A stretch of DNA of 36,106 bases, taken from NCBI RefSeq assembly GCF_016888165.1, contig NZ_JACSWC010000318.1:1-36106 (forward strand), read 5' to 3'. This DNA is from Halomicronema sp. CCY15110. GTDB taxonomy: Bacteria; Cyanobacteriota; Cyanobacteriia; Phormidesmidales; Phormidesmidaceae. The translations under genes were made by a program, and so were the position numbers. Shown in pieces: positions 14,348 to 32,052 of the stretch (position 1 is the stretch's first letter; each line of letters starts with the position of its first letter). The notes beneath the pieces were generated by a model. The model did not search any database. It was not told the DNA's origin and was given only the letters and a program-made list of their open reading frames with translations.

Positions 14348-14872
14348 ATGGCCTCTCAACGTTCCGATGATTCTCGATTAGCCCTCGATCTCATGGCCCA
14401 GTTGCGAGATCCGCAATGGGCGTTGGAGGCGGCACGAATTGAGGAGGAGGCTCACTGTGACATCAGCGCAGGGCCAGAATTCGGGGCGCGATTGGGGCAG
14501 TTCATGGCGGATCCGCACAGTTTTCATCAGTTCCAGCGGTTACGAGATTTAGTGCTGAGGGAGTTTCGGCAATTACTCACGGACGGCAATCTAGGCGTGG
14601 GCACTGATGCGGCTTGGAGCGTGGGACAAGAACGGTTAATGCTACGGCTGAAGCAGCCCAGTCCTAACATTCAGGCACAACTCAAATTGGTGTTGGCAGA
14701 GGACTTGGCGACAACAGAGAATGAGCCGTTATCGGCAGATGCTTTGGCACTTTTTCAACAAGCCGTTTATGCTGCGCTGACACCCGAAGATTGGGATGAT
14801 ATCGCCGCCGCCGCCGCTAAGGCTGTTCAAATGCATGTGAAACGACAGCTTAAGTTGCAACAATCCGCGTAG
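14348..14872 (+). CDS. Hypothetical protein paired with the GNAT-like gene
   Basis: A 174-residue, mostly helical soluble protein that I do not recognise. It has acidic, alanine- and leucine-rich stretches (for example LVLAEDLATTENEPLSADALALFQ and LTPEDWDDIAAAAAKAVQ) and ends in a basic helix. No membrane segments, cysteines in pairs or nucleotide-binding motifs are seen. The 9-bp spacing to the GNAT-like gene points to a functional pair, for instance enzyme and partner or modified target; this is inference only. Confidence 0.7.
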   Translation: MASQRSDDSRLALDLMAQLRDPQWALEAARIEEEAHCDISAGPEFGARLGQFMADPHSFHQFQRLRDLVLREFRQLLTDGNLGVGTDAAWSVGQERLMLRLKQPSPNIQAQLKLVLAEDLATTENEPLSADALALFQQAVYAALTPEDWDDIAAAAAKAVQMHVKRQLKLQQSA

Positions 14873-14965: not shown

Positions 14966-16447
14966 CTAGTCGTGACTGATCGCTGGTCGGATGTCTCGTA
15001 CAAGACGAATCAAGCCCACTAAAACGGTCAAAAATTCTAGCCGTCCTAAAAACATCGCGACAATCTCGGTCCATAGCAAAGTTGTGGGGGCATCCGGTGC
15101 GGTCACTCCAACCGAGAGACCCACGGTACTCATGGCGCTCGCAGTTTCAAACAGGCTTTCGTCAAGGGAATAGCCATGCCCTGCCATGATCAGGCTAATG
15201 ACTCCGTAAGTAGCCAGATAGAGAAAGACAAACAGAGCGGTTTGCCGAACTTGCTCATCGCTGATGAAGCGGCGATTGTTGGTCTGCCAGATTCTAGGTT
15301 CACTCACTAAGCGATCGGGCATCAGCATTCGCTGAATTTCCCATAACAGGCTGCGATAGAGGATATAGATCCGCATTTGCTTGATGCCGCCAGCCGTTGA
15401 GCCTGCTCCTCCGCCAACCAGCATCAACAGAATTAAAATAAGCCAGCCCAAACCACTCCAGTCGCCATAGCCCACAGTCGAAAATCCGGTTGTGGTTAAG
15501 GCTGAAATGGGCTCAAACACTGCCACCCGAAATGCTTTGCCGACAGAACCGTAAATTGCTCCAGTGATCCCCAACCACAACACGATCGCACTGCCACCAA
15601 TGAGCACTATTTGCAACCGCACCTGCCCATCACGCCAGAGGCTCGACCATTTGCCCCGGAGGATGAGGTAACTCAGCACGAAGTTGAAGCTGCCTAGCAG
15701 CATCAGCACCCAGGTTACGACTTCTACCGGCACGCTATCCCAGTAGCCAATGGAGTCAGGGCGGGTAGAGAACCCCCCGGTTGATAATGCTGCAAAGGCG
15801 TGATTAACGGCATCAAACCAGTCCATCCCCGCAATGCGGAGGGCAAGGATACCGATCGCCACATAGCCGGAGTAAATGCTGAGGACCAGTTTGGCGGAAC
15901 GACGAACATGGGGAGCCAATTGCTCACTGCGCCCTTCGGCACTGGAGAGCCCAGAACCCGAGGGACCGGCGATCGCACTCAGGGTAATGATCGCTAACCC
16001 AGCTCCCCCATAGAGTTCTGTAATGCTGCGAAACAGCAAGATCAAGCGGGGAGCCTGGGTCACATCGACGACCGAAAGGCCCGTGGTCGTCCAGCCGCTG
16101 GTGGACTCAAAGACAGCCTGGGTGAAGGTGAGGCCGGAGATCCAGATAAACGGCACCGTACCCACCAGAATCACAAGCAGCCAAGATAGCACCACAATGA
16201 CAGAGCCTTCTTGCAGCGTCAAACTGCGTCCGGTTTTCGGCGTCAGCCAGCGCCAAGCCGCCCACCCAAATGCTGACAGTAGCAGCCCCGGCACGAGAAA
16301 ACCGCCTGCCAGTACCCATTCTTCGGAATAAAAGATCAACGCCAGCAGCGGGGACAAAATACCGATCCCAGCAATGAGACAAACCAATCCGGTATAACCA
16401 CCGACGGCCCGATAACGCTGACGCAGAAACGCTTGATAGCGGCCCAT
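14966..16447 (-). CDS. trkH: TrkH/KtrB-type potassium transporter, pore subunit
   Basis: A 493-residue membrane protein with four M1-P-M2 units. The four selectivity-filter stretches are readable: STSGWTTTGLS, ALSTGGFSTRP, ALTTTGFSTVGYGD and SAMSTVGLSVGV, each with the conserved glycine. Length and the extra N-terminal helices fit TrkH. It moves K+ inward, gated by cytoplasmic RCK (TrkA/KtrA) rings. Its ATG abuts the stop of the RCK gene at 16448 without spacing, so it is the last gene of a tight operon. Confidence 0.96.
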   Translation of the reverse strand: MGRYQAFLRQRYRAVGGYTGLVCLIAGIGILSPLLALIFYSEEWVLAGGFLVPGLLLSAFGWAAWRWLTPKTGRSLTLQEGSVIVVLSWLLVILVGTVPFIWISGLTFTQAVFESTSGWTTTGLSVVDVTQAPRLILLFRSITELYGGAGLAIITLSAIAGPSGSGLSSAEGRSEQLAPHVRRSAKLVLSIYSGYVAIGILALRIAGMDWFDAVNHAFAALSTGGFSTRPDSIGYWDSVPVEVVTWVLMLLGSFNFVLSYLILRGKWSSLWRDGQVRLQIVLIGGSAIVLWLGITGAIYGSVGKAFRVAVFEPISALTTTGFSTVGYGDWSGLGWLILILLMLVGGGAGSTAGGIKQMRIYILYRSLLWEIQRMLMPDRLVSEPRIWQTNNRRFISDEQVRQTALFVFLYLATYGVISLIMAGHGYSLDESLFETASAMSTVGLSVGVTAPDAPTTLLWTEIVAMFLGRLEFLTVLVGLIRLVRDIRPAISHD

Positions 16448-17110
16448 CTAACTGATGTCTCCCATAATCACCTGATACGCCGCTTCGTAAGCTCCGGCTT
16501 GACTGATGACAATCAGGCGATCGCCTGCCTGCAACTGGCTATTCCCTTTCGGAATCATGACTGTGCCTTGACGCACGATACAGGCAATAATGGCCGCTTG
16601 CAGATTCAAGTCCTTCAAGCTCTGACCAACCGCTGGACTATCGGCCTGAAGGGTCACCTCCGCGAGATGCACGTCTCCATCAGCCACGGGCACCAGCGCT
16701 TTAATGTCTTTGTAATCCGTTTGCTGCTCAATGAGCTGGCCTAAAATTTCGGTAGCGGAGAAGACGACCGATACCCCCAACTGCTTAAACACCGCTTGGT
16801 TAGCCGGATCGTTCACGAGCGCGATCGTTCGGGGCACTCCAAAACGCTTTTGAGCAATCTGGCAAGCCACCAAATTGTCTTCATCTTGGCCCGTCAAGGC
16901 TAACAATACATCGGCTCGGTAAGCCCCAGCATCCTCTAATACTGCGGGTTCGCTGCCATCACCATGCAGGACAGTCGCTTGCAATTTATGAGACAGCGCC
17001 AATGCTTCCTCCCGCCGAGCGGTAATCAGGGTTAAAGCATACCCTTTAGCAACAAAATGCTTGCCTAAAAAGTACGCCAGCTTGTCTTGACCAATCACAA
17101 TCACTCTCAT
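16448..17110 (-). CDS. trkA: TrkA/KtrA-type gating subunit (RCK_N + RCK_C)
   Basis: A 220-residue cytoplasmic regulator of a K+ channel. Residues 1-120 form the Rossmann RCK_N domain (MRVIVIGQDKLAYFLGKHF; acidic HGDGSEPAVLEDAGAYRADVLLALTGQDEDNL). The first glycine motif is imperfect: GQDKLAYF instead of GxGxxG. Residues about 140-218 form RCK_C (LAEVTLQADSPAVGQSLKDL, LQAGDRLIVIS). Its start overlaps the stop of the preceding RCK_N gene by 4 bp (ATGA), and its stop abuts trkH. Confidence 0.93.
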   Translation of the reverse strand: MRVIVIGQDKLAYFLGKHFVAKGYALTLITARREEALALSHKLQATVLHGDGSEPAVLEDAGAYRADVLLALTGQDEDNLVACQIAQKRFGVPRTIALVNDPANQAVFKQLGVSVVFSATEILGQLIEQQTDYKDIKALVPVADGDVHLAEVTLQADSPAVGQSLKDLNLQAAIIACIVRQGTVMIPKGNSQLQAGDRLIVISQAGAYEAAYQVIMGDIS

Positions 17111-18424: not shown

Positions 18425-19555
18425 TTAGTTATTGGCAATAATATGGAGATCAACTTGAGGTAGTGCTCGCATTAGTCGCTGCACGATAGAGCCTTTGAAT
18501 AACAATTGAAAACGAGATCGACGTGTTTCACCTAAAACAATCTGAGTGATGCGTTCTTGAGTCGAAACTTCAACGATAGCGGTCACAATATCCGGCGATT
18601 GTTTTCTAAGAAATTCCCCTTCAAACTCCTGACATAAACGTTCACAGGTTTCAATATGCAGCGCTTCTGATTTTGTTAAAAATTTGCCTTCAGGAGCAAC
18701 AAATAAAACGAACAGTCGACCATTCATATGATTGGTAATCCGAGCCCCTCGCCGCAAAAGCTGAATCGAATTGGGATAGGTTGAAATACACACCAAAACC
18801 CGCTCTTGAATATTACAGTGAGGATTTTGATCGGTAGCAACCGATTCTTCTTCGATGTTGTCGGCAATTTCGCGCAGGGCTAATTCTCTTAAGGCAATCA
18901 GATTACTGCGACGAAAAAAGTTGTGCAGGGCCTGGTCAATCTTTTCAGGCGCATAGATTTTGCCTTCCTGAAGCCGTTCTTGCAGCATCTCTGGGGTGAC
19001 ATCGACCACGACGATTTCATCCGCGTCATCAATCACGCGATCGGGAATGCGCTCCCGCACGACCACCCCAGAAATGCGATGCACCAGATCATTCAAGCTC
19101 TCTAAGTGCTGAATATTGACAGTTGAATAAACGTCAATTTCAGCGTCTAGAATTTGTTCGACATCCTGATAGCGTTTCTCCCGTTGAGAACCCGGTATGT
19201 TGGTATGGGCCAACTCATCCACCAGTACCAGTTGAGGAGCTCGCTCCAGAATGGCTTCTGTATCCATTTCTTGCAGCATGACTCCTCGGCAATTGACTCG
19301 TTTACGGGGGATCAGGTCTAACCCTTCTGCCTTGAGAGCTGTCTCCTCCCGACCGTGAGTTTCTAATAATCCCACAATCACATCGACGCCATCTTGCTTG
19401 AGCGCGTGCCCTTCTTCGAGCATGCGGTACGTCTTGCCGACGCCGGGAGCCATGCCAATGAAGATTTTGTGTTTACCTCGGCGGTGGGGTTTTTGGTAAC
19501 TGGCAGAGGCGTTGGCGAAGCCTCCAGGAACGGGAATCGCAGCGGGGTTATACAT
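18425..19555 (-). CDS. kdpD: Truncated KdpD (KdpD domain + Usp domain, no kinase)
   Basis: A 376-residue protein equal to the N-terminal half of enterobacterial KdpD (about 900 residues). Walker A is GMAPGVGKT (34-42) and Walker B is LVLVDELAHTN, followed by NIQHLESLNDLV. The C-terminal part (about 250-376) is a universal-stress-type domain (RVLVCISTYPNS, QIVLGETRRSRF). Membrane helices and the histidine-kinase core are absent, as known for cyanobacterial KdpD. It cannot signal by phosphotransfer itself. It ends the kdp cluster. Confidence 0.95.
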   Translation of the reverse strand: MYNPAAIPVPGGFANASASYQKPHRRGKHKIFIGMAPGVGKTYRMLEEGHALKQDGVDVIVGLLETHGREETALKAEGLDLIPRKRVNCRGVMLQEMDTEAILERAPQLVLVDELAHTNIPGSQREKRYQDVEQILDAEIDVYSTVNIQHLESLNDLVHRISGVVVRERIPDRVIDDADEIVVVDVTPEMLQERLQEGKIYAPEKIDQALHNFFRRSNLIALRELALREIADNIEEESVATDQNPHCNIQERVLVCISTYPNSIQLLRRGARITNHMNGRLFVLFVAPEGKFLTKSEALHIETCERLCQEFEGEFLRKQSPDIVTAIVEVSTQERITQIVLGETRRSRFQLLFKGSIVQRLMRALPQVDLHIIANN

Positions 19556-19588
19556 AGCAAGAAGAGGGAGGGATTGGAGCGATGGAAC

Positions 19589-19596
19589 GTTTTAAC
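19589..19596. repeat. GTTNNAAC site A (kdpC/kdpD junction)
   Basis: One full unit, GTTTTAAC, flanked by the half units GGAAC before and GTTGATC after, in phase at 8 bp. The kdpC stop codon lies inside the unit. It is the smallest of six sites of the same repeat in the kdp cluster. Confidence 0.7.
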
Positions 19597-20164
19597 GTTG
19601 ATCTAGAGAGAGGTTTAGCGTGACCGTATTGACAGCGGGCTCACCAAAGATGCCTAAGAATCGTCCTTCGGTGTTTTGTGTGATGAGGGTTTGCAGGTCG
19701 TCGAGTGAAAGGTTGCGAACAGCGGCGATGCGGTCAATTTGAGCGATCGCGCTCGCTGGTGAAATATGGGGATCCAGACCAGAACCGGAACTATAGAGCA
19801 GGTCAGCGGTCGGTGCGATGTTGGCAGCTTGCAAAATTTCCGCTCTTTCTTCGGTTAATGCCAGCAGGTCAGGGTTGCTGGGGGCCAGGTTAGTCGCGCC
19901 TGATAGCCCGGTAGGGGCAGCCGCTTCACCGATGCTGTAATCGACGGCACTAGGGCGACTCCAGAAATATTCTTCGCTGCTAAAGGCTTGACCGATCAGG
20001 GTAGAGCCGATGACTTGACCCTGATCATTCACAATCAGGCTGCCGTTAGCTTGAGCGGGAAAGATACCCTGGCCGATTACCAAAATCAGCAAGGGGTAAA
20101 TCAGGGCGGTGAGCAGCCAGAGAACGACCGTGGTGCGGATGCTGGTCGTGATGTCTTGAATCAT
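19592..20164 (-). CDS. kdpC: KdpC, K+-transporting ATPase subunit C
   Basis: A 190-residue single-span membrane subunit of the KdpFABC complex. The N-terminal helix is TTVVLWLLTALIYPLLILVIGQ. The KdpC signatures follow: GSTLIGQAFSSEEYFWSRPSA, GLSGATNLAPSNPDL, GSGLDPHISPASAIAQIDRIA and the C-terminal GRFLGIFGEPAVNTVTLNLSLD. It stabilises ATP binding by KdpB. No good Shine-Dalgarno match precedes it; the upstream array B and microprotein gene lie in the spacer to kdpF. Confidence 0.97.
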   Translation of the reverse strand: MIQDITTSIRTTVVLWLLTALIYPLLILVIGQGIFPAQANGSLIVNDQGQVIGSTLIGQAFSSEEYFWSRPSAVDYSIGEAAAPTGLSGATNLAPSNPDLLALTEERAEILQAANIAPTADLLYSSGSGLDPHISPASAIAQIDRIAAVRNLSLDDLQTLITQNTEGRFLGIFGEPAVNTVTLNLSLDQR

Positions 20165-20206
20165 GGTTTTTAGGGGTAATTAGGGTTTGTGGAAAGGGAT
20201 CGGAGC

Positions 20207-20238
20207 GTTAAAACGTTGGAACGTTAGAACGTTTTAAC
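20207..20238. repeat. GTTNNAAC array B (kdpC/microprotein junction)
   Basis: Four contiguous 8-bp units with middle dinucleotides AA, GG, AG and TT, then a partial unit GTTCGA. The first and fourth are reverse complements of each other. The microprotein's last codons and stop are written in the array. Confidence 0.88.
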
Positions 20239-20370
20239 GTTCGAGAATTTATCCTGATGGCGGCGGCGATGGCGATCGCGATACCGTTCAAGTTGTGCCT
20301 GCCGGATCTGTCGCTTCAGTCGCCCCAGACGGATCTGTTCGCGAATCTGATTAATGAGTCTTTTCAACAT
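20224..20370 (-). CDS. Basic microprotein (48 aa) inside the kdp operon
   Basis: A 49-codon frame, ATG at 20368-20370 and TAA at 20224-20226, beginning 2 bp after the kdpF-like stop. A GGAGA ribosome site within the kdpF end lies about 11 nt upstream. It starts MLKRLINQIREQIRLGRLKR and continues to RYRDRHRRRHQDKF, a predicted arginine-rich amphipathic helix. It is paralogous to the microprotein beside trk (20 of 31 aligned residues identical by my count). The last residues (SNVKTF) are encoded by the GTTNNAAC array, suggesting the repeat invaded the gene end. The tight spacing after kdpF supports real translation. No known family. Confidence 0.65.
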   Translation of the reverse strand: MLKRLINQIREQIRLGRLKRQIRQAQLERYRDRHRRRHQDKFSNVKTF

Positions 20371-20372
20371 GA

Positions 20373-20624
20373 TCAAAATTTCTCCGGTTTCAAAATGACG
20401 GTGGTGAGATACGCGGCCAGTCCGATGACGACCAGACCGAGCAGCCCAAGAGCATAGGCATTACCTCGGGCGAGACTGTCGGTAGCGGCATAGAGGGCAG
20501 GCGCGATCGCCAGGTTTAAGCACAGAGCGATGAAAAGTCCTACAGCAATTCGGGCGCGGCGTTGCTGTAAGTGCTCTAACCAGTCGTTACAAGTTTCAAG
20601 GGGTCGCAAGGTAAATCTATTCAT
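20373..20624 (-). CDS. kdpF: KdpF-like small membrane subunit with N-terminal extension
   Basis: An 83-residue protein with two membrane helices (about 27-47 and 56-77). The C-terminal third, LGLLGLVVIGLAAYLTTVILKPEKF, matches KdpF, the 29-residue lipid-like stabiliser of KdpFABC, including the final P-E-K/R-F. The extra N-terminal helix is not in E. coli KdpF. A small gene at this place, between kdpB and kdpC, is called kdpG in some cyanobacterial literature (from memory). GGAG before ATG 20624 fixes the start; a TTG at 20663 falls in array C. Confidence 0.82.
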   Translation of the reverse strand: MNRFTLRPLETCNDWLEHLQQRRARIAVGLFIALCLNLAIAPALYAATDSLARGNAYALGLLGLVVIGLAAYLTTVILKPEKF

Positions 20625-20656
20625 CAGCGGATCTCCAAGTAGTAGGTTGCTTAAAC

Positions 20657-20680
20657 GTTCCAACGTTCGAACGTTTCAAC
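20657..20680. repeat. GTTNNAAC array C (kdpF/response-regulator junction)
   Basis: Three contiguous units with middles CC, CG and TC, flanked by degenerate units (GCTTAAAC before and GTTTAG after). It fills most of the 62-bp spacer. Confidence 0.85.
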
Positions 20681-20686
20681 GTTTAG

Positions 20687-21481
20687 TTAAAGGGCATCGT
20701 CAAAGCAGGGGCGCGCTCTCAAGTTGGTGGTGGCACGATGCAGATTGGCTTCAGCGGGCTGATAGGTTGGATCTAGTCCTAGTGCAGCTCGGTAGAGTTT
20801 GAGGGCTTCTAAGCGATCGCCCAAGCATTCAGTAATCAAACCCAACAACGTTAAAGACTCTGGCCGTTCAGGAGCTTGCTTCATCGCTTCGCCGATGAGC
20901 TTGCGGGCCTGGTCAAATTCGCTTTGTCGGGCACACTGACGAGCCAGTTTGATCAGCTCATCGAAGTCGCCTGTGGGGACTCCAGCAGCAGGGGGATGAT
21001 TCAGGGCTTCAGCGACGACGGTGCGAATGCGATCGGGTTCAAAGGGGCGTTGGAGGTAGCCGTGGGGCTCATGAATGAAATCTACCGCCCCCTGTTTCAT
21101 GGCATTGACGGCATCTTCCAGGCTGCAATGGTCGCAAATCATCACGACCCGAATATGGGGATAGAGCGAGAGCAGTTGCCCTAAGCGCCCGCCTTCAGCT
21201 TGTTGAGAAATGGCGAGATCCAAAATCATCAGGTCAATAGCCTGTTGTTGCAATTGCTCAAAGGCAGCTTCCCAATCGGCTGCCCCGTAGATGTGGTAGC
21301 CTTCGGGTTGCAGAAAATCAGTCAATATCAGTCGGGTCGCCGTCTCGTGATGCACGATCAGTAGGCTGGCCGGAGACACACGCTCCTCTAATAGTTCAGG
21401 GACAGCGATCGCTTGGGCTTCTGAAGGTCGATCATCGGGTAATGAGAAATCCGATGAAGTTTGAGAAGAAAAAAGAGTCAT
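20687..21481 (-). CDS. Degenerate response regulator with TPR-like C-terminus
   Basis: A 264-residue protein. Residues about 38-160 form a receiver fold. The acceptor Asp88 (LMILDLAIS) is kept, but the acidic pair is HisHis (LLIVHHETATR, 44-45), the switch Thr is Cys116 and the Lys is Arg145 (YLQRPFEPDRI), with a short insertion before it. Mg2+ binding and normal phosphorylation are thus doubtful. Residues about 173-250 are helical repeats of TPR type (ARQCARQSEFDQARKLIGEAMKQAPERPESLTLLGLI then ALKLYRAALGLDPTYQPAEANL). AGGAGG sets the start. It sits 13 bp after kdpB, an unusual place for a regulator; there is no DNA-binding domain. Confidence 0.88.
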   Translation of the reverse strand: MTLFSSQTSSDFSLPDDRPSEAQAIAVPELLEERVSPASLLIVHHETATRLILTDFLQPEGYHIYGAADWEAAFEQLQQQAIDLMILDLAISQQAEGGRLGQLLSLYPHIRVVMICDHCSLEDAVNAMKQGAVDFIHEPHGYLQRPFEPDRIRTVVAEALNHPPAAGVPTGDFDELIKLARQCARQSEFDQARKLIGEAMKQAPERPESLTLLGLITECLGDRLEALKLYRAALGLDPTYQPAEANLHRATTNLRARPCFDDAL

Positions 21482-21494
21482 CGTGTAAAACCTC

Positions 21495-23582
21495 CTACGC
21501 TAAACCAACGCTGCCGACGATGAGATCGATGAGCTTGATGGCGATAAAGGGCGCGATGACACCCCCCAAGCCAAAAATCAGCATGTTGCGCTGTAGCAGT
21601 TGATTGGCGGTTAATGGACGGAACTTCACTCCCTTTAGAGCTAGGGGAATCAGGGCGGGAATAATCAGCGCGTTGTAGATCAGGGCAGACAGTACCGCCG
21701 ACTGGGGGCTATTCAGACCCATGATGTTGAGGGCACCGATGCCCGCTGCCGCAAACATCGCCGGAATGATGGCGAAATATTTGGCAATGTCATTGGCAAT
21801 GGAAAAGGTGGTCAGTGCGCCGCGCGTAATCAGCAACTGCTTACCAATGGTGACCAGGTCAATCAGCTTGGTGGGGTCGGAGTCGAGATCGACCATGTTG
21901 GCGGCTTCTTTGGCGGCTTGGGTCCCAGAGTTCATCGCCACCCCGACGTTAGCCTGGGCCAGCGCTGGCGCATCGTTGGTGCCGTCGCCGGTCATCGCCA
22001 CCAGCTTGCCTTCGGCCTGTTCGGCTTGAATCACCTGGATTTTGTCTTCGGGGGTGGCTTCGGCGACAAAGTCATCGACTCCGGCTTCGCGGGCAATCAC
22101 TTCGGCAGTGATGCGGTTGTCACCCGTCAGCATCACAGTGCGCACCCCCATGCGCCGCAGTTGGTCAAACCGTTCATGAATGCCGGGTTTGATGATGTCT
22201 TTGAGGTAGATGACGCCGTAGATGTCATCATTCTGGCAAAGCGCCAGCGGTGTGCCGCCTAAACGGGAAACTTTTTCAAAGGCGTGATCCAGCCCTTCTG
22301 GAACGTGGCCGCCGCGCGATCGCACAAAGCCGCGAATGGCATCCACTGCCCCTTTACGAATTTCGCCGCCATCGGGCAGGTTGGTGCCGCTCATGCGGGT
22401 GCGGGCGGAAAAATCTACCGCTTCCGCTGTGCGCTGGTCGAACGCCAGGGATGCTCCCTGCTGCTGTGCCAACCGCACGATGGATTTGCCTTCGGGAGTC
22501 GTATCAAAGATGCTGGCAGCCAGCGCCACCGAAGCCACCTTATCGGGGCTGTGGCCATTCAGGGGAATAAATTCTTCGGCCAAACGGTTGCCCAGGGTGA
22601 TGGTGCCGGTCTTATCCAGCACCAGCGTATTGATGTCGCCACAAGCTTCGACCGCTCGACCAGAGGTAGCGACCACGTTGAACTGCGCGACGCGATCCAT
22701 CCCGGCAATCCCGATCGCGCTCAGCAATCCCCCAATCGTGGTGGGAATCAGCGCCACCAGCAGGGCAATCAAAATGGCGACGCTGACGGGACTGTCGATA
22801 TAGGCTGCCGGAGTCGGGAGGGTGGCGATCACAATCAAAAACACCAGGGTCAGCACCGCCAGCAGCACCGTCAGGGCAATTTCGTTGGGGGTTTTGCTGC
22901 GCTCAGCCCCTTCGACCAGGGCAATCATGCGGTCAATAAAGCCCTTACCAGGGTCAGCGGTCACCTGAAGCGTCAGTTCATCCGAAATAATCTTGGTGCC
23001 GCCGGTGACGGAGCTAGCCACATCCGAGCCTGCTTCCTTCAACACCGGAGCCGATTCCCCAGTAATGGCTGATTCATCCACCGAAGCGACGCCATCCAGC
23101 ACTTCCCCATCAGCAGGGATAACGTCACCGGCGATGACCTTGATGCGATCGCCCCGGCTCAAGCTGGTGGAATACACTTCCTCGGTGGAGCCATCGGCCA
23201 AAATCTTGCGCGCGGTCGTCTCTGACTTGGTGGAGCGCAGCGCATCCGCCTGAGCCTTACCTCGCCCCTCTGCCACCGCTTCGGCGAAGTTAGCAAACAC
23301 GATAGTCAAGAACAGAATGATGGCAATCAGGCCGTTAAACAGCACCGGATTATCCGGTACCGGACCAAAGAGCCCAGGATTGAAGGTCAGCAGAACCGTG
23401 ATGATGGTGCCCACCCAGACCACAAACATGACGGGGTTTTTCACCATCACGCGCGGATCAAGCTTGAAAAATGCTTCTTTGAAAGCCCGCTGGTAAAGGC
23501 CCGACATATCCACTTTCGGCGTATGTCGTCGCCCTTCGCGGGGTCCACCGGGCTGATGGTGGTGTTGTGTAGAACTAGTCAT
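21495..23582 (-). CDS. kdpB: KdpB, K+-transporting P-type ATPase catalytic subunit
   Basis: A 695-residue P-type ATPase. The phosphorylated residue is Asp323 in [12 protein letters not shown]; the actuator loop is ITGES (173-177); the hinge is [22 protein letters not shown], with [32 protein letters not shown] before it. Membrane segments occur at about 52-68, 81-100, 235-290 and in the last 110 residues. It hydrolyses ATP to drive K+ uptake through KdpA. A His-rich N-terminal extension (TQHHHQPGG) precedes the usual start. Part of a leftward operon, but separated from kdpA by an antisense gene. Confidence 0.98.
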
Positions 23583-23628
23583 GACGGTTATGGAATGAAA
23601 GAACTAAAGGTTGAATGAGGGAGGGAAA

Positions 23629-23676
23629 GTTAGAACGTTTAAACGTTGCAACGTTCTAACGTTTGAACGTTCTAAC
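23629..23676. repeat. GTTNNAAC array D (kdpB side of the inserted gene)
   Basis: Six contiguous 8-bp units with middles AG, TA, GC, CT, TG, CT. Units 1 and 4 (also 1 and 6) are reverse complements. Together with array E it brackets the antisense four-helix-bundle gene. Confidence 0.92.
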
Positions 23677-23727
23677 GGTGGGTAAATGGGGGAATTTTAG
23701 GGGCATGATTTCAGGGTTAGGTACAAC

Positions 23728-24099
23728 ATGGGCACGATTCGGAGGTTTGAGGATATTGAGGCTTGGCAGACGGCGCGGATAATGACTCGGTTTGTTTATC
23801 GGGTTTCGAGTGAGGGGCATTTCGCACGGGATTTTGGCCTCAAAGATCAGATGCGACGGGCGGCGGTTTCGGTGATGTCGAATATTGCGGAAGGGTTTGA
23901 AAGCCGGACACCGAAGCTGTTTATCAACTATTTGGGCATTGCCAAGGCATCGGCGGGGGAGTTGCGATCGCAGGCTTATATCGCTCTCGATGCGGGTCAT
24001 ATTAATCAAGCCGAATTTGAGCAGTTATTTGATCTGGTAGAAAAATGCAGTTGTCAGCTCAGTCGGTTTATGACGTATTTACAGTCCCAGCTTCGATAG
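23728..24099 (+). CDS. Four-helix-bundle protein (S23/IVP type)
   Basis: A 123-residue helical protein of the family first known from 23S rRNA intervening sequences and related to diversity-retroelement Avd proteins. Signatures: RFEDIEAWQTARIMTRFVYRVS, DQMRRAAVSVMSNIAEGFESR and the closing FEQLFDLVEKCSCQLSRFMTYL. It is the only plus-strand gene between kdpB and kdpA and lies between arrays D and E, so it is antisense to any kdpAB message. No clear ribosome site is seen. Members of this family are often found in odd places and may travel as small cassettes; the function is unknown. Confidence 0.9.
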   Translation: MGTIRRFEDIEAWQTARIMTRFVYRVSSEGHFARDFGLKDQMRRAAVSVMSNIAEGFESRTPKLFINYLGIAKASAGELRSQAYIALDAGHINQAEFEQLFDLVEKCSCQLSRFMTYLQSQLR

Positions 24100-24108
24100 C
24101 TTGAGTTC

Positions 24109-24164
24109 GTTAGAACGTTAGAACGTTAGAACGTTAGAACGTTAGAACGTTGGAACGTTTCAAC
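24109..24164. repeat. GTTNNAAC array E (kdpA side of the inserted gene)
   Basis: Seven contiguous 8-bp units: five identical GTTAGAAC copies, then GTTGGAAC and GTTTCAAC. It ends 8 bp from the kdpA stop. The identical copies suggest recent slippage expansion. Confidence 0.94.
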
Positions 24165-24171
24165 GGTTTTC

Positions 24172-25866
24172 TTACCCTCCGGCAGCAGCTTTGGCGATCG
24201 CAAAGCCTTCCGCGATTGGCCCTAACGCCAGCACCGGCAAGAAGGTCAGTGCCCCAAGAATGAGAATGGTGCCTGCGGTCACGCCTGTGAACAAAACGCT
24301 GTCGGTGTAAAGCGTGCCCGCCGTTTCGGGGACGGGCTGCTTCTGGGCCATGCTGTCGGCCAGGTAAATCAGCGCAACAATCGGGATATAGCGACCGACC
24401 AGCAGTGAGAAGCTGGCGCTGAGGTTCCACCAGAGGGTATCGTCGCCCAGCCCCTCAAAGCCGGAGCCATTGTTGGCCGCAGCGGAGGCATATTCATAGA
24501 TCACCTGGGAAATGCCGTGGAAGCCGGGGTTGCTGATGCCCGCTAAGGTTTCAGGAAAAGCCAGGGTAATCGCGCCGGGAATGAGAATCGCGATGGGGTG
24601 AGCCAGCAAGATGATGCTAGCCAGAACGATTTCGCGCTTCTCAATTTTGCGGCTGAGGAATTCGGGGGTGCGGCCTACCATCAAGCCTGTGAGGAACACC
24701 GTCAAAATCAGAAAGACAAACAGGTAGGCCGTGCCGGTGCCCTGACCACCCCAGACAATTTGCAGGAACATGTCAGAGAGGGTGGCAAAGCCACCAGGGG
24801 GCATTAGGGAATCGTGCATGCCATTGACGGCACCACACATCGTTCCGGTGGTTGAAACGGCCCAGAGTGCCGTCAGCGCCCAGCCAAACCGCACCTCTTT
24901 ACCTTCTAGGTTGGGGGCTTGCTCGCCCAGAATGCCGTTGACCAGCGGATTGCCCTGGAACTCGCCCACCGCCGCGATCGCGATTAGGGCAGCGTAGAAG
25001 ACGAACACCATGCCAAAGATGAACCAGCCCTGACGCGGTTTGCCCGCCATGATGCCGTAGGTCAAAATCAGCCCCGCCGGAATGACCAGCATGATGATGT
25101 TGGTCAGCAGATTCGTGAAGTTGTTCGGGTTTTCGTAGGGGTGGGCCGAGTTGATGCCGAAGAAACCACCGCCGTTTTCGCCCAGCTCCTTGATGATTTC
25201 GAAGTGGGCCACCGGGCCACGGGCGATATATTGAGTCGCCCCTTCTAACGTTTGAGCGACAGCGGGACCTGCGAAGGTTTCTGGCACTCCGGCAATCACG
25301 AGGGCGATCGCCCCCACAATCGAAATCGGCAGCAAAATCCGGGTAATCGATAGGGTCAGGTCAACATAAAAGTTGCCTAGCGCATTCCCCGTTAGACCTC
25401 GGATGAAGGCGATCGCGACCGCAATTCCCGTTGCCGCTGAGGTGAACATTAAAAAGCCCAGCGCCCCGGCTTGTGAAAAGTAGGTATAGGTGGTTTCGCC
25501 AGAATAATGCTGCTGATTCGTATTGGTGACAAACGAAATAGCAGTGTGCAGTGCCAAATCCCAGTTGGGTGCATCTAAACCAGTCGGATTCAGCGGCAGC
25601 ACCCCTTGCAGCATGAAGATGAGAAATACCAAAATTCCCATCACCAAATTGCTTACCAAAATGGCTCTGATATATTGCCCCCCCGTCATGGAGGGTTGAT
25701 TTGAAAAACCACCAGTGCTAAACAACAGTCGCTCTAGAGGACTGGCAACGGGATCAAGCACCGTCCTCTGCCCCATAAACACCCGCGCCATATATTTGCC
25801 TAAAAACGGCGCGACTACTAACAGAATCGCCAAGGCGATCGCGAGTTGAAAAAATCCCTGAGCCAT
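24172..25866 (-). CDS. kdpA: KdpA, K+-transporting ATPase channel subunit
   Basis: A 564-residue membrane protein related to TrkH, binding K+ in a four-fold filter. The filter stretches are visible: [55 protein letters not shown] and [13 protein letters not shown]. The N-terminus ([25 protein letters not shown]) with [17 protein letters not shown] is typical. GGAG precedes the ATG at 25866. It is the promoter-proximal kdp gene. Array F and a 250-bp control region lie upstream. Confidence 0.98.
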
Positions 25867-25901
25867 GAAAAAACTCCTAACTAACTAAAGGGAAATTAAA
25901 C

Positions 25902-25942
25902 GTTCAAACGTTGGAACGTTAAAAACGTTTGAACGTTCAATC
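25902..25942. repeat. GTTNNAAC array F (kdpA leader)
   Basis: Units GTTCAAAC, GTTGGAAC, a 9-bp variant GTTAAAAAC, GTTTGAAC and GTTCAATC. The first and fourth are reverse complements. It is in the presumed 5' leader of the kdp mRNA, 35 bp from the kdpA start. Confidence 0.88.
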
Positions 25943-26218
25943 CCGTATCCATCAGCCTTAAAAACGAACGTTGATTACACCCTCACTATTCCGCCTCTAA
26001 AGCTGTTTTGACAAGGTATAGAACAGTGTTTATATAGGATTTATATTGCCAGGATTAGGCAACCAGACTAGAGGCGTTTAGAAGTGTTTAGATGAAATCA
26101 ATAAATGCCTATATCATCTGATATAAATTCAAGCTACTTATTCAATTCAGCTCTTAGAATAGATTGACAAATAGATTAAGTTATTCCCTATTTATTGACC
26201 ACCCACCCAGTTGCTCCT
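25943..26218. promoter_or_regulatory. Divergent control region kdpA / histidine kinase
   Basis: This AT-rich spacer has no gene. On the plus strand, TTGACA at 26164-26169 is a -35 candidate, with TATTTA at 26189-26194 as a loosely spaced -10 for the kinase gene. A dyad TATATCATCTGATATA lies at 26110-26125 (7-bp arms). The direct repeat GTTTAGA occurs at 26076-26082 and 26086-26092, period 10 bp. A TTGCC/GGCAA inverted repeat lies near 26047-26063. Several TATA-rich stretches could be the kdpA -10. No c-di-AMP riboswitch pattern was recognised. Confidence 0.5.
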
Positions 26219-27346
26219 ATGCCAAGGTCTAGACCTGTCTCCTATTTCGATCAGTTGATCCAGGCCTGTCATCGCATTCACTGGCTGATTGGGGTCATCT
26301 TCGTCTTGGTCATCTTGCTGGAGTACAGTACGCCGCCGCCCTATGTGTTTGGCTATCTGTATGTCGGGGCGGTGCTGATTGCTAGCACTCGGCTCAGTCG
26401 TCGCGCCACCCTTTGGGTAACCGCTGTGGCGATCGCCTTTACCTTGCTCAATCTGTTTGTTCCAGGGGTCGCCGCCATTACGCCGGATACCGTTGCCAAT
26501 CGAGTGATTACCGTGCTGGCGCTGGGGGTTACGGGCTGGCTCGGCGATCGCCTCCAATCCTACGAGCAGGCGATTACGCGGCAACGCTTACAACTCCAGG
26601 CGCAGGAACAGCTCGCCCAAATGCGGGAAGACTTTGTCTCGACCCTCACCCATGATTTGAAGACGCCGTTATTGGGTGCTTTGGAGACGTTGCGGGCGTT
26701 GCGCACTGAAAACTTTGGCCCGGTTTCGCTGCCCCAACGCCGGGTTTTTGAGGTGATGACCCGCAGCCATCAAAAGACGCTGCAACTGGTGGAAACCTTG
26801 ATGGACGTTTATCGCAACGATGCCGAAGGGCTGAGGCTGCACCGCCAACGGCTCGATCTGCTCACCCTGGCGGAGGATGCCGTCGCTGATGTGGTGCCCT
26901 TGGCCACCTCGCGCCAAATCCATCTGCGGGTCAAGGACGAAACTTCGGAGTTTCGGCGGTCTTACTGCGTCCATGGCGATGCTTTGCAGCTTTCGCGGGT
27001 GCTGGTGAATCTGCTGTCGAATGCTGTCAACCATTCCCGGCGGGGGAGTTCGGTGCAGGTGGTAATGGGCACGGCCAACGGTCACTGCCAGGTACAAATC
27101 ATCGACGAGGGGCAGGGCATACCCGCTGATGAGCTGCCGCATTTGTTCGATCGCTTCTATCAGGGGCAGAGCGATCGCCAAGCGAAAGGCACCGGGTTAG
27201 GACTTTATCTCAGTCGTCAAATTGTGGAGGCCCACGGCGGTAAAATTTGGGCAGAGTCTCGCGCTAATGGCGCAGTCTTTGCGTTTCGGCTCCCCGCCTG
27301 CGTAAATGAGTTGCCTTTACCCGCTACGAGCAAATCGACGGCATGA
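26219..27346 (+). CDS. Membrane sensor histidine kinase, candidate kdp regulator
   Basis: A 375-residue kinase. Residues about 18-110 hold three to four hydrophobic segments (WLIGVIFVLVILLEY, YVFGYLYVGAVLIAS, ATLWVTAVAIAFTLLNLFV, VITVLALGVTGWLGD) with very short loops, so it senses within the membrane or cytoplasm. A coiled coil leads to H-box FVSTLTHDLKTPLLG with His145, N-box LVNLLSNAVNHS, and DEGQGIPADEL, FDRFYQG and GTGLGLYLSRQIVEAHGG. ATG 26219 is taken; a TTG at 26195 is the alternative. It overlaps its regulator gene by 4 bp and is divergent from kdpA. Confidence 0.93.
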   Translation: MPRSRPVSYFDQLIQACHRIHWLIGVIFVLVILLEYSTPPPYVFGYLYVGAVLIASTRLSRRATLWVTAVAIAFTLLNLFVPGVAAITPDTVANRVITVLALGVTGWLGDRLQSYEQAITRQRLQLQAQEQLAQMREDFVSTLTHDLKTPLLGALETLRALRTENFGPVSLPQRRVFEVMTRSHQKTLQLVETLMDVYRNDAEGLRLHRQRLDLLTLAEDAVADVVPLATSRQIHLRVKDETSEFRRSYCVHGDALQLSRVLVNLLSNAVNHSRRGSSVQVVMGTANGHCQVQIIDEGQGIPADELPHLFDRFYQGQSDRQAKGTGLGLYLSRQIVEAHGGKIWAESRANGAVFAFRLPACVNELPLPATSKSTA

Positions 27347-30696: not shown

Positions 30697-32052
30697 ATGA
30701 AAGTCAAAAATCCTTCCAAAATTATTCGCACTGACAAATGGGCATTAAACCCGACCGCTGAACAGCGTCATCTGTTCGGCGAGACGGTGAATGTCTATCG
30801 TCGGGTGTGCAGATATTTGGTCGGCATTGTCTTGACGCACTGGCCAGAGTTAGGGGTTTTATCGCCGGATGAGCAGATCCCCGCTGTAGAGCGATTGATG
30901 CACTCGACGGCAAATCGGGCCATTGTGAAATATCCGCAGATTAACCGGGTGTTTCATAAGTTCCCCAGCTACTATCGCAGGGCTGCAATCAGCTTTGCGA
31001 TAGGGCAGGTTAGCAGCTACATAACTCGGTATCGAGACTGGCAAAGCGGTCTATCCCGTAAACGACGGGATGCTAAGCCGCCTACGCTCAATGCGGATGC
31101 ATGCTGCTACCCTACCCTCTACAAAGGCCAGTGCTACAAGTTGCATGGCTACGACGCGGTTGAGATCAAGGTGTTTACAGGGTCTGACTGGATCTGGACA
31201 ACGGTTCAGATTAGTGGACTTCGAGAACGCCATGAAGTACCGGGCAACAAAATGCTGTCGCCGTCTCTAATCTTCAACCGCAAAGCCTGCCATCTCTCGG
31301 TTCCGTTTCACTGTGTTCCTCCAAAGCGGAAACCTGACGAAAATGTTGTCGCCGTTGACTTGGGCATCAATACCACGGCAACGGTCACGGTCGTAACGTT
31401 CGACGGTACTGTAATCCATCGTGAGTTCATTCACCCTGGAAGAGACATAGACCGTCGAGACAAGCGGCTCAAGTCCGTTTCGATGCGGGCCTCTAAAACA
31501 ATGGGTAAAGGTGGGAAGCTGCACAAAGGCTTCTGCGCCAATACCTATCGCAAATGCCAGAACATCAACAACCAGATTGGGCACGTCGTTTCTAAGCGGA
31601 TTGTCCAGATTGCCAGTGAGTTCAACTCAGAGGCCATCGTCTTCGAGAATATGAAAGGCTGGAAGGCAACGGGTGGGCGAAAACGCTCAAACCTGCGTCA
31701 ACGCTTTCATGGCTGGCTCAAGGCAAAAATCCGCGACTACACCGAGATGAAGTGGCGAGAGGCTGGCGGCAAAGTGATTGATGTCGTTGCCGCCTATACC
31801 TCGAAGATGGCTTATGACGGTTCTGGCATCGTTAAGCGAGATTCCAAAAACTATGCTCTGGCAACGTTCCCGTCAGGTAAGCGCATCAATGCGGATCTGA
31901 ATGGGTCGTACAACATCGCCGCCAGGGGCATCATTAAGCTCACGCGCAGCAATGACCGTGAGGACCGTTCCAGCAAACGTTCTGGACGGTCGCCTAGAAG
32001 TTGGGCTTGTCTGTGTGATCTCTGGACTCAGGATAGTCTGAGATTAGCATAG
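30697..32052 (+). CDS. tnpB: TnpB, RuvC-like RNA-guided nuclease, zinc-ribbon-less variant
   Basis: A 451-residue TnpB. The RuvC catalytic residues are Asp221 (VVAVDLGINTTATV), Glu317 (AIVFENMKGWK) and Asp400 (INADLNGSYNIAARG). The zinc ribbon normally found between the second and third motifs is reduced to TSKMAYDGSGIVKRDSKNYALATFPSGKRINAD, with no cysteine. The N-terminal recognition part (1-210) is present. TnpB proteins cut DNA guided by an RNA from the element's right end. The spacer to tnpA contains TATTAT as a possible -10. The frame is intact. Confidence 0.94.
   Translation: MKVKNPSKIIRTDKWALNPTAEQRHLFGETVNVYRRVCRYLVGIVLTHWPELGVLSPDEQIPAVERLMHSTANRAIVKYPQINRVFHKFPSYYRRAAISFAIGQVSSYITRYRDWQSGLSRKRRDAKPPTLNADACCYPTLYKGQCYKLHGYDAVEIKVFTGSDWIWTTVQISGLRERHEVPGNKMLSPSLIFNRKACHLSVPFHCVPPKRKPDENVVAVDLGINTTATVTVVTFDGTVIHREFIHPGRDIDRRDKRLKSVSMRASKTMGKGGKLHKGFCANTYRKCQNINNQIGHVVSKRIVQIASEFNSEAIVFENMKGWKATGGRKRSNLRQRFHGWLKAKIRDYTEMKWREAGGKVIDVVAAYTSKMAYDGSGIVKRDSKNYALATFPSGKRINADLNGSYNIAARGIIKLTRSNDREDRSSKRSGRSPRSWACLCDLWTQDSLRLA

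Follow-up and report, generated by a model that had tools for sequence, protein, structure and literature searches.

AACGTT octamer arrays in the kdp cluster of Halomicronema sp. CCY15110: members of a widespread family of gene-border repeats and candidate hairpins between cistrons

The kdp cluster and its arrays

The window analysed here, a stretch of 36,106 nucleotides from Halomicronema sp. CCY15110 (contig NZ_JACSWC010000318.1; the 6.15-Mb assembly is designated G000 below), carries a kdp potassium cluster in which six gaps hold arrays of the form AACGTT(NN AACGTT)n, with the cores set head to tail at 8-bp steps. Read in the GTTNNAAC register, the six sites comprise 1, 4, 3, 6, 7, and about 4 units, the last array being broken by a 9-mer, in agreement with a preliminary description of this DNA. 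The arrays belong to a family of short intergenic repeats found in about a dozen phyla; they have most likely moved between lineages together with the kdp genes, and they may act as hairpins in mRNA.

The cluster lies on the minus strand and comprises kdpA (24172–25866; PF03814), kdpB (21495–23582; PF00122 and PF00702, its name resting on the place between kdpA and kdpC), a gene for a response-regulator receiver and TPR protein (RR-TPR; 20687–21481; PF00072 and PF07719), an open reading frame (ORF) with a KdpF domain at the C-terminus of its product (20373–20624; PF09604; the likely start is the ATG at 20624, while the listed ORF begins with the TTG at 20663), a small conserved ORF (20224–20370), kdpC (19592–20164; PF02669), and a gene for a protein with KdpD-sensor and Usp domains (18425–19555; PF02702 and PF00582, with no match to a kinase domain). 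A gene for an S23, or 23S rRNA intervening-sequence-type, protein (23728–24099, plus strand; PF05635) lies antisense between kdpA and kdpB, and the genes for a histidine kinase, a LuxR-type regulator, and an Na+/H+ exchanger are located divergently upstream of the cluster.

Array A (19586–19599; two cores) supplies the kdpC stop codon and lies 30 nt upstream of the kdpD-N start. Array B (20212–20241; four cores) is situated 47 nt upstream of the kdpC start and reaches into the small ORF, so that it contains the last codons and the stop of this ORF. Array C (20654–20683; four cores) occupies the gap between RR-TPR and kdpF, about 29 nt upstream of the ATG (20624) of kdpF, a start judged by eye. 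Array D (23634–23671; five cores and two edge units with one mismatch each) is found in the divergent kdpB/S23 gap, 51 nt upstream of the kdpB start, and array E (24114–24159; six cores) between the convergent ends of kdpA and the S23-type gene, where it precedes no start codon; its spacers are AG four times and GG once, and the five identical GTTAGAAC units reported previously are present. Array F (25899–25937) consists of three cores (25899–25920) and two further ones (25924–25937) separated by a 3-nt spacer, and lies in the divergent gap between kdpA and the histidine kinase gene, 32 nt upstream of the kdpA start. The first and fourth units of arrays B, D, and F are reverse complements, as had been described.

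The two-unit pattern with at most one mismatch matches the window 21 times, whereas 100 dinucleotide-shuffled versions of it gave 0.04 matches on average. In the whole assembly there are 19 exact two-core and 12 exact three-unit places, every one of them inside the kdp cluster, with no three-unit match for the reversed control; the earlier statement that nothing comparable occurs elsewhere in 36 kb thus extends to all 6.15 Mb. When one mismatch was allowed, nine isolated two-core places were found on other contigs versus 16 for the reversed pattern, which is the chance level. A search of Rfam 15 with positions 19000–26500 (E value up to 5) gave three matches, all to microRNA families and far below the gathering scores, the best having an E value of 0.083.

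The small ORF, which codes for a basic product, is present in six clusters, and in five of them its stop is inside array B or at the edge of this array. The S23-type gene, flanked by arrays D and E, may have been inserted into a single array, splitting it in two. It is also found in the cluster stretches of the related genomes G008, G046, G032, and G045, and was absent from those of G022, G048, G055, G028, and G038. As a general partner of the arrays, S23 (PF05635) was rejected: a hidden Markov model based on the S23 protein of the window matched just 4 of 122 loci (E value up to 0.01), lying no more than 4 bp from the array in two of the four, one of which is the kdp cluster of G008. The window also contains TrkH/TrkA genes in the vicinity of kdp and, downstream of the Na+/H+ exchanger gene, an IS605 OrfB/TnpB-like one (14966–17110; 30697–32052).

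Arrays in the same gaps of related genomes

An exact three-core site was found in 11 of 95 genomes and a four-core site in 8 of the 388 genomes of the class (G000 included in both counts), all eight belonging to one family. kdpA is present in 15 of 57 genomes of the family; eight of these 15 have at least two exact cores in or beside the cluster, and no array was found in the kdp stretches of the other seven (G004, G009, G022, G028, G038, G047, and G056), some of which are short contigs.

Arrays occupy all six gaps in both G000 and G008. The latter has an additional three-core array (locus L047, 7670–7691) within the RR-TPR coding sequence, in frame and near the N-terminus, at a place where the RR-TPR gene of the window has none. 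The site B array is also common to G046, G048, and G055, while two cores are found at site D in G045 and on the kinase side of the site F gap in G032 and G049. In locus L097 of G049 the kdp cluster has shrunk to a piece of kdpA beside a piece of kdpD, apparently by deletion. The spacers at site B are GG-GA in G046, GG-AG-GA in G055, and, after one mutated core, GG-AG-GA-GA in G048, a series that looks like the gain and loss of whole units.

The block shared by G000 and G008 is not young, as 479 of 1282 fourfold sites in seven genes differ between the two genomes. Across that divergence the arrays were kept in all six gaps, with changed unit numbers and spacers. Several kdp gaps of relatives contain other 8-bp units: GTTNNCAC in G032, GTTGGAAG-like ones in G045, and, as judged by eye, a GCG-type in G046. 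In the kdpC/kdpD gap of the last genome (L087, about 14440–14600), the GCG-type octamers are followed by CCTCCCA and GCACCCC-like heptamer repeats (by eye), so that several kinds of repeat share a single gap.

Probable movement of the kdp block between lineages

GyrA of G000 shares 95, 89, 84, 83, and 81–92% identity (the last a split hit) with its counterparts in five congeners, and 68–69% with those in G008, G022, G055, G046, G048, and G032. MurJ behaves similarly, with 85–96% identity to congeners, 73–80% to G008 (in two pieces), and 67–69% to G022, G055, G046, G048, and G032. KdpA shows the opposite pattern: it is 93% identical to that of G008, which belongs to another genus, 91% to that of G022, 90% to those of G046 and G048, and 86% to that of G055. 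Among the congeners a match was found solely in G004 (75% identity), and the closest one, G001, has none. The products of the kinase and regulator genes upstream of kdp are 91–93% identical in G008 and 85–86% in G004, so this part may have a history different from that of the kdp block. Neither TrkH nor the SBF transporter of the window is closely matched in G008, except for a 42-residue SBF fragment.

These identities indicate that the kdp block, with its arrays, most likely moved between lineages. The G008 assembly is listed with 6% contamination and 910 contigs, and its kdp contig could be foreign; the argument for transfer rests also on G022, G046, G048, and G055. Such movement would account for the confinement of the arrays to kdp in G000.

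Distribution across phyla

A scan of one genome per species, which gives lower bounds, revealed at least 117 array stretches labelled with about a dozen phyla, several of which rest on a single contig of a metagenome-assembled genome. The matches listed are mostly from Chloroflexota, and also from Bacteroidetes, KSB1, Latescibacterota, Poribacteria, Acidobacteria, Thermoanaerobaculales, Abditibacteriales, Verrucomicrobia, Planctomycetota, a proteobacterium, a Roizmanbacterium, and Cyanobacteria. Twelve genomes chosen for having matches contain 7 to 259 two-core sites each, versus 0 to 2 for the reversed pattern.

Samples were taken from large contigs of a member of Chloroflexota (G390; 399 kb) and of a cyanobacterium (G032; 400 kb); the contigs were chosen as already known to carry arrays, the positions within them being unchosen. 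The two samples contain 32 and 47 period-8 pairs of AACGTT, respectively, versus at most one for any other of the 64 palindromic hexamers. In G032 some of this signal is due to a larger inverted-repeat element that has the array in its middle. In the g12 cyanobacteria (L030, L041, L103, L111, L044, and L031) dispersed copies lie at the centre of an imperfect palindrome of about 105 bp (length judged by eye), which starts near TATAGCTGTAGCCAGTCTGG, ends near its complement, and resembles a miniature inverted-repeat transposable element (MITE) with the AACGTT array as its apex. G390 also harbours many heptamer arrays and a second octamer family, roughly GCGAATNN, again with two freer bases (L234–L253, e.g., C1 107152–107296 and 121793–121890).

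Position relative to genes

The position of 134 arrays was surveyed in 115 of the 117 listed loci, from 48 assemblies (the cyanobacterial L116 and L186 were left out), with home-made gene calls whose choice of starts favours Shine–Dalgarno matches. Only 30 of the 134 arrays lie inside called genes, compared with 1925 of 2300 random places. Among the 104 intergenic arrays, a stop codon is found within 60 nt in 54 (73 of 375 for random intergenic places) and a start no more than 60 nt downstream in 47 (85 of 375), while just three are in divergent gaps (59 of 375). Some arrays overlap the stop codon and supply it, as A and B do in the window.

In the first sample of G390, 14 of the 16 arrays lie between genes, and 13 of these 14 end 17–44 nt before a start codon, in one instance within an 818-bp gap. 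In the window, five of the six arrays precede a kdp start by 29–51 nt. By a stricter test, with the start 16–60 nt from the array, the position is shared by 29 of 137 arrays (random places, 95 of 1220; single AACGTT sites, 24 of 195; TTGCAA sites, 13 of 227); the corresponding values are 12 of 16 versus 167 of 2000 random places for G390 and 2 of 7 versus 36 of 1000 for the window. At two Anaerolineae loci (L171 and L197) an array is found at seemingly matching gene ends, with the cores kept and the spacers reading TA-TA-CA in one and TG-CC-GA in the other (by eye).

Fixed core, free spacer, and predicted folding

When period-8 clusters were detected without presetting the phase, adjacent units matched at 0.78–0.97 in the core phases and 0.28–0.31 in the spacer phases in the window (four clusters), at 0.77–0.89 and 0.44–0.47 in G008 (seven clusters), and at 0.81–0.91 and 0.40 in G390 (24 clusters). 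A count with preset phase, which admits at most one core mismatch and hence favours the core, gave changes at 4 of 180 core versus 19 of 46 spacer positions in G000, and at 6 of 204 versus 22 of 54 in G008. Other G390 repeats also have an adjacent low-match pair (0.441 versus 0.558 permuted for period-8 repeats and 0.502 versus 0.578 for heptamers), and the freedom of two bases may be a wider rule extending beyond AACGTT.

The commonest spacers are GG and CC; the purine–pyrimidine types AC, AT, GC, and GT make up just 27 of 596. Strand bias of the spacers is not significant in G390 (14 purine–purine versus 19 pyrimidine–pyrimidine) or in other Chloroflexota (25 versus 39); it is significant in KSB1 (12 versus 0), from which few arrays come. 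Adjacent spacers are identical more often than expected in other Chloroflexota (42 of 153, null 15.4) and in non-Chloroflexota (47 of 112, null 13.1), and show a weak excess among the arrays of kdp (a value as high was reached in 80 and 30 of 1000 shuffles); they are not above the null in G390 or G032. In G390 the arrays show no significant clustering (six gaps below 6 kb among 23 arrays in 777 kb, where 3.6 are expected and 243 of 2000 shuffles give as many), and local spread was rejected as a general rule.

RNA of the six sites, folded as the kdp strand, has predicted energies of −3.5 to −25.9 kcal/mol with z-scores of −2.1 to −7.0, so the hairpins foreseen in the preliminary description can form in prediction. 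Such low z-scores are likely with a palindromic core.

Comparison with known repeats

Short tandemly repeated repetitive (STRR) heptamers are intergenic repeats of cyanobacteria. The AACGTT arrays resemble them in having contiguous short units, in lying mainly outside genes, and in varying in unit number between relatives at one place, and differ from both STRR and the TAACTGA repeats discussed below in the unit length of 8 instead of 7 bp. To our knowledge, no architecture of fixed positions plus two free bases has been described for STRR heptamers. REP/BIME elements are extragenic palindromes located after stops and between cistrons and thought to act on mRNA; their units are longer, many are linked to RAYT transposases, and they do not form a simple 8-bp array. 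The AACGTT arrays share with them the palindromic nature, the location between cistrons or after stops, and the scarcity in divergent gaps, arrays D and F of the window excepted.

The directly repeated TAACTGA heptamers are scattered over Beggiatoaceae, Cyanobacteria, and Bacteroidetes, and their horizontal spread has been suggested (MacGregor 2015, PMC4679880). In BOGUAY they are mostly intergenic, just upstream of starts, some overlapping the stop of the upstream ORF, and in two Cyanothece strains they share positions, with indels mostly in 7-nt steps (PMC4679880). They have in common with the AACGTT arrays the short head-to-tail unit, phylogenetic scatter, and gene-border position. Unlike the TAACTGA unit, which is a fixed non-palindromic 7-mer mostly oriented to the downstream gene (PMC4679880), the unit of 8 bp described here combines a palindromic hexamer with a free dinucleotide, occurs also in convergent gaps, and lacks a significant strand bias in the large groups. 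The (GGGANTN)n/GGGAATC repeats of Xanthomonas and Nostoc have heterogeneous units with some positions fixed (PMC4692102, where heptanucleotides of Calothrix are also mentioned). These repeats are intergenic in 89% and 93% of cases in two xanthomonads, lie mostly between the same genes, and change in length and sequence between relatives (PMC4692102); they differ from the AACGTT arrays in being G-rich heptamers that could form G-quadruplexes and in lying nearer to the next 5′ ORF (PMC4692102). The intergenic Caldithrix AACCGTTnnAACGGTT element is a palindrome centred on two bases, which is seldom found between divergent genes and is present at convergent ends (PMC5317091), but it forms single 18-nt palindromes of another sequence and no 8-bp tandem (PMC5317091). 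A literature search for the octamer unit itself yielded the Caldithrix paper alone, and no earlier description of the AACGTT octamer family was found in the open-access literature searched. On the simplest account, the arrays are octamer relatives of the known intergenic heptamer repeats, with a unit built on a palindrome.

Proposed role and alternatives

We propose, with slightly more confidence than doubt, that the arrays of the window belong to a widespread family of short tandem repeats lying between genes, (AACGTTNN)n, which here moved together with kdp and act as hairpins in mRNA between cistrons. Slippage would add and remove units. The self-complementary hexamer is conserved, and the spacer dinucleotide varies freely. 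Most arrays are found where genes end or begin: at a stop codon, which they sometimes supply, or shortly behind it, and, in Chloroflexota and the window, also just upstream of the next start. Each would form a stem–loop in the operon mRNA and thereby affect the stability or the translation start of its neighbours. An mRNA hairpin is favoured because any two AACGTT cores can pair irrespective of the spacers.

Several observations weigh against this proposal, the strongest being the non-palindromic octamers of relatives and the lack of complementarity between spacers in most genomes. The GTTNNCAC, GTTGGAAG-like, and GCG-type units are not full palindromes and occupy the same kdp gaps; the 8-bp period may thus be of greater importance than palindromy. 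Spacer complementarity about the array centre is at the null level in other Chloroflexota (11 of 88, null 9.0) and in non-Chloroflexota (7 of 62, null 6.3); in the two kdp sets it was found in 0 of 7 and 0 of 8 pairs (0 of 15, about 0.8 expected), a set too small to tell. It exceeds the null in G390 (11 of 35, null 5.4; 19 of 2000 shuffles, or 112 of 2000 with shuffling within arrays) and in the MITE-rich G032 sample only, where shuffling within arrays cannot tell, and selection of the spacers for hairpins was rejected. As regards position, none of the 27 arrays in the G032 sample passes the stricter start test (134 of 2000 random places do), none of 13 arrays of Bacteroidota has a start within 60 nt, and in the window arrays D and F are in divergent gaps and E is before no start codon. 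Moreover, other short repeats of G390 lie within 60 nt of starts (17 of 40 for 7-bp and 8 of 19 for 8-bp ones, versus 10 of 12 AACGTT clusters); they share this position less strictly, and it was rejected as specific to AACGTT. Two other candidate roles were dropped, the supply of stop codons in all frames, as the commonest spacers, GG and CC, make none, and promoters for extracytoplasmic-function (ECF) sigma factors, as two-core arrays are too short for the consensus.

A horizontally spread cis-element read by an oligomeric RNA- or DNA-binding factor, which would contact AACGTT at 8-nt steps and ignore the spacer bases, is a tentative idea that we consider unlikely. It is conceived by analogy with TRAP, which reads spaced triplets. 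The core would have arisen in about a dozen phyla or been brought into them, and operons that move, kdp among them, would take it along. Somewhat more doubtful still is a protein binding or modifying DNA irrespective of kdp, such as a methyltransferase or a dimer at each palindrome, one per 8 bp. A symmetric reader of DNA would leave just such a combination of fixed palindrome and free spacer, and strand bias of the spacers is not significant in the two largest groups, but divergent, promoter-rich gaps are avoided overall and the units in the same gaps of relatives are not palindromic. The single AACGTT sites give a divided picture: in the G390 sample they number 107 versus 16 arrays, and 81 of the 107 are in coding sequence, close to the coding share of 84%, whereas in the G032 sample just 17 of 52 are. 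We know of no protein reading AACGTT arrays, and no search for one was made.

That the arrays are neutral products of slippage, tolerated in gaps and kept renewed by slippage and copying of units, is also improbable, though it deserves consideration ahead of the remaining alternatives. It fits the unit indels at site B, the excess of identical adjacent spacers in two groups, the extra array inside the RR-TPR gene of G008, and the presence in such gaps of other 7- and 8-mers, some with an adjacent low-match pair. Nevertheless, six fixed and two free positions are not what point mutation with copying should produce, one and the same hexamer is met with in phylum after phylum with 0, or 0–2, matches to its reversed form, the arrays persist in six gaps over a large synonymous divergence, and divergent gaps are avoided overall. 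The preliminary suggestion of a slippage-prone micro-repeat that spread locally fits the changes in unit number, the adjacent identical spacers, and the G008 array better than does a binding site tying the operon together, but its local spread is not general, as seen in G390. Regulatory sites specific to kdp, also put forward in the preliminary description, seem very improbable. They would agree with the presence of all exact arrays of G000 within the cluster, with the six gaps common to G008, and with the site B array in G046, G048, and G055; against them stand the seven kdp clusters of the family that show no array, the arrays far from kdp in array-rich genomes, and the movement of the cluster between lineages. 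An even scatter over the genome, named earlier as evidence against a kdp role, was not what was found in G000, where the confinement is explained by the horizontal movement of the cluster. Least probable of all is an origin as remnants or parts of a MITE. In the G032 sample 15 of 27 arrays pass a crude test for flanking TAGC/GCTA, and at least one copy with long imperfect inverted flanks was seen by eye in each of G046, G048, G049, G053, G054, G055, G022, and G008; such flanks are absent from the kdp gaps (by eye) and from the 45-base flanks of Chloroflexota arrays inspected, and the lack of terminal inverted repeats around the kdp arrays led us to reject this origin for them.

A repeat confined to one operon can be a footprint of transfer and not of an operon-specific function. 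If the rule of a fixed core and a free spacer is functional, it would allow a gene-border element to be searched for in many phyla without cultured members, and would offer a clean test of why bacterial genomes keep intergenic repeats of 7–8 bp.

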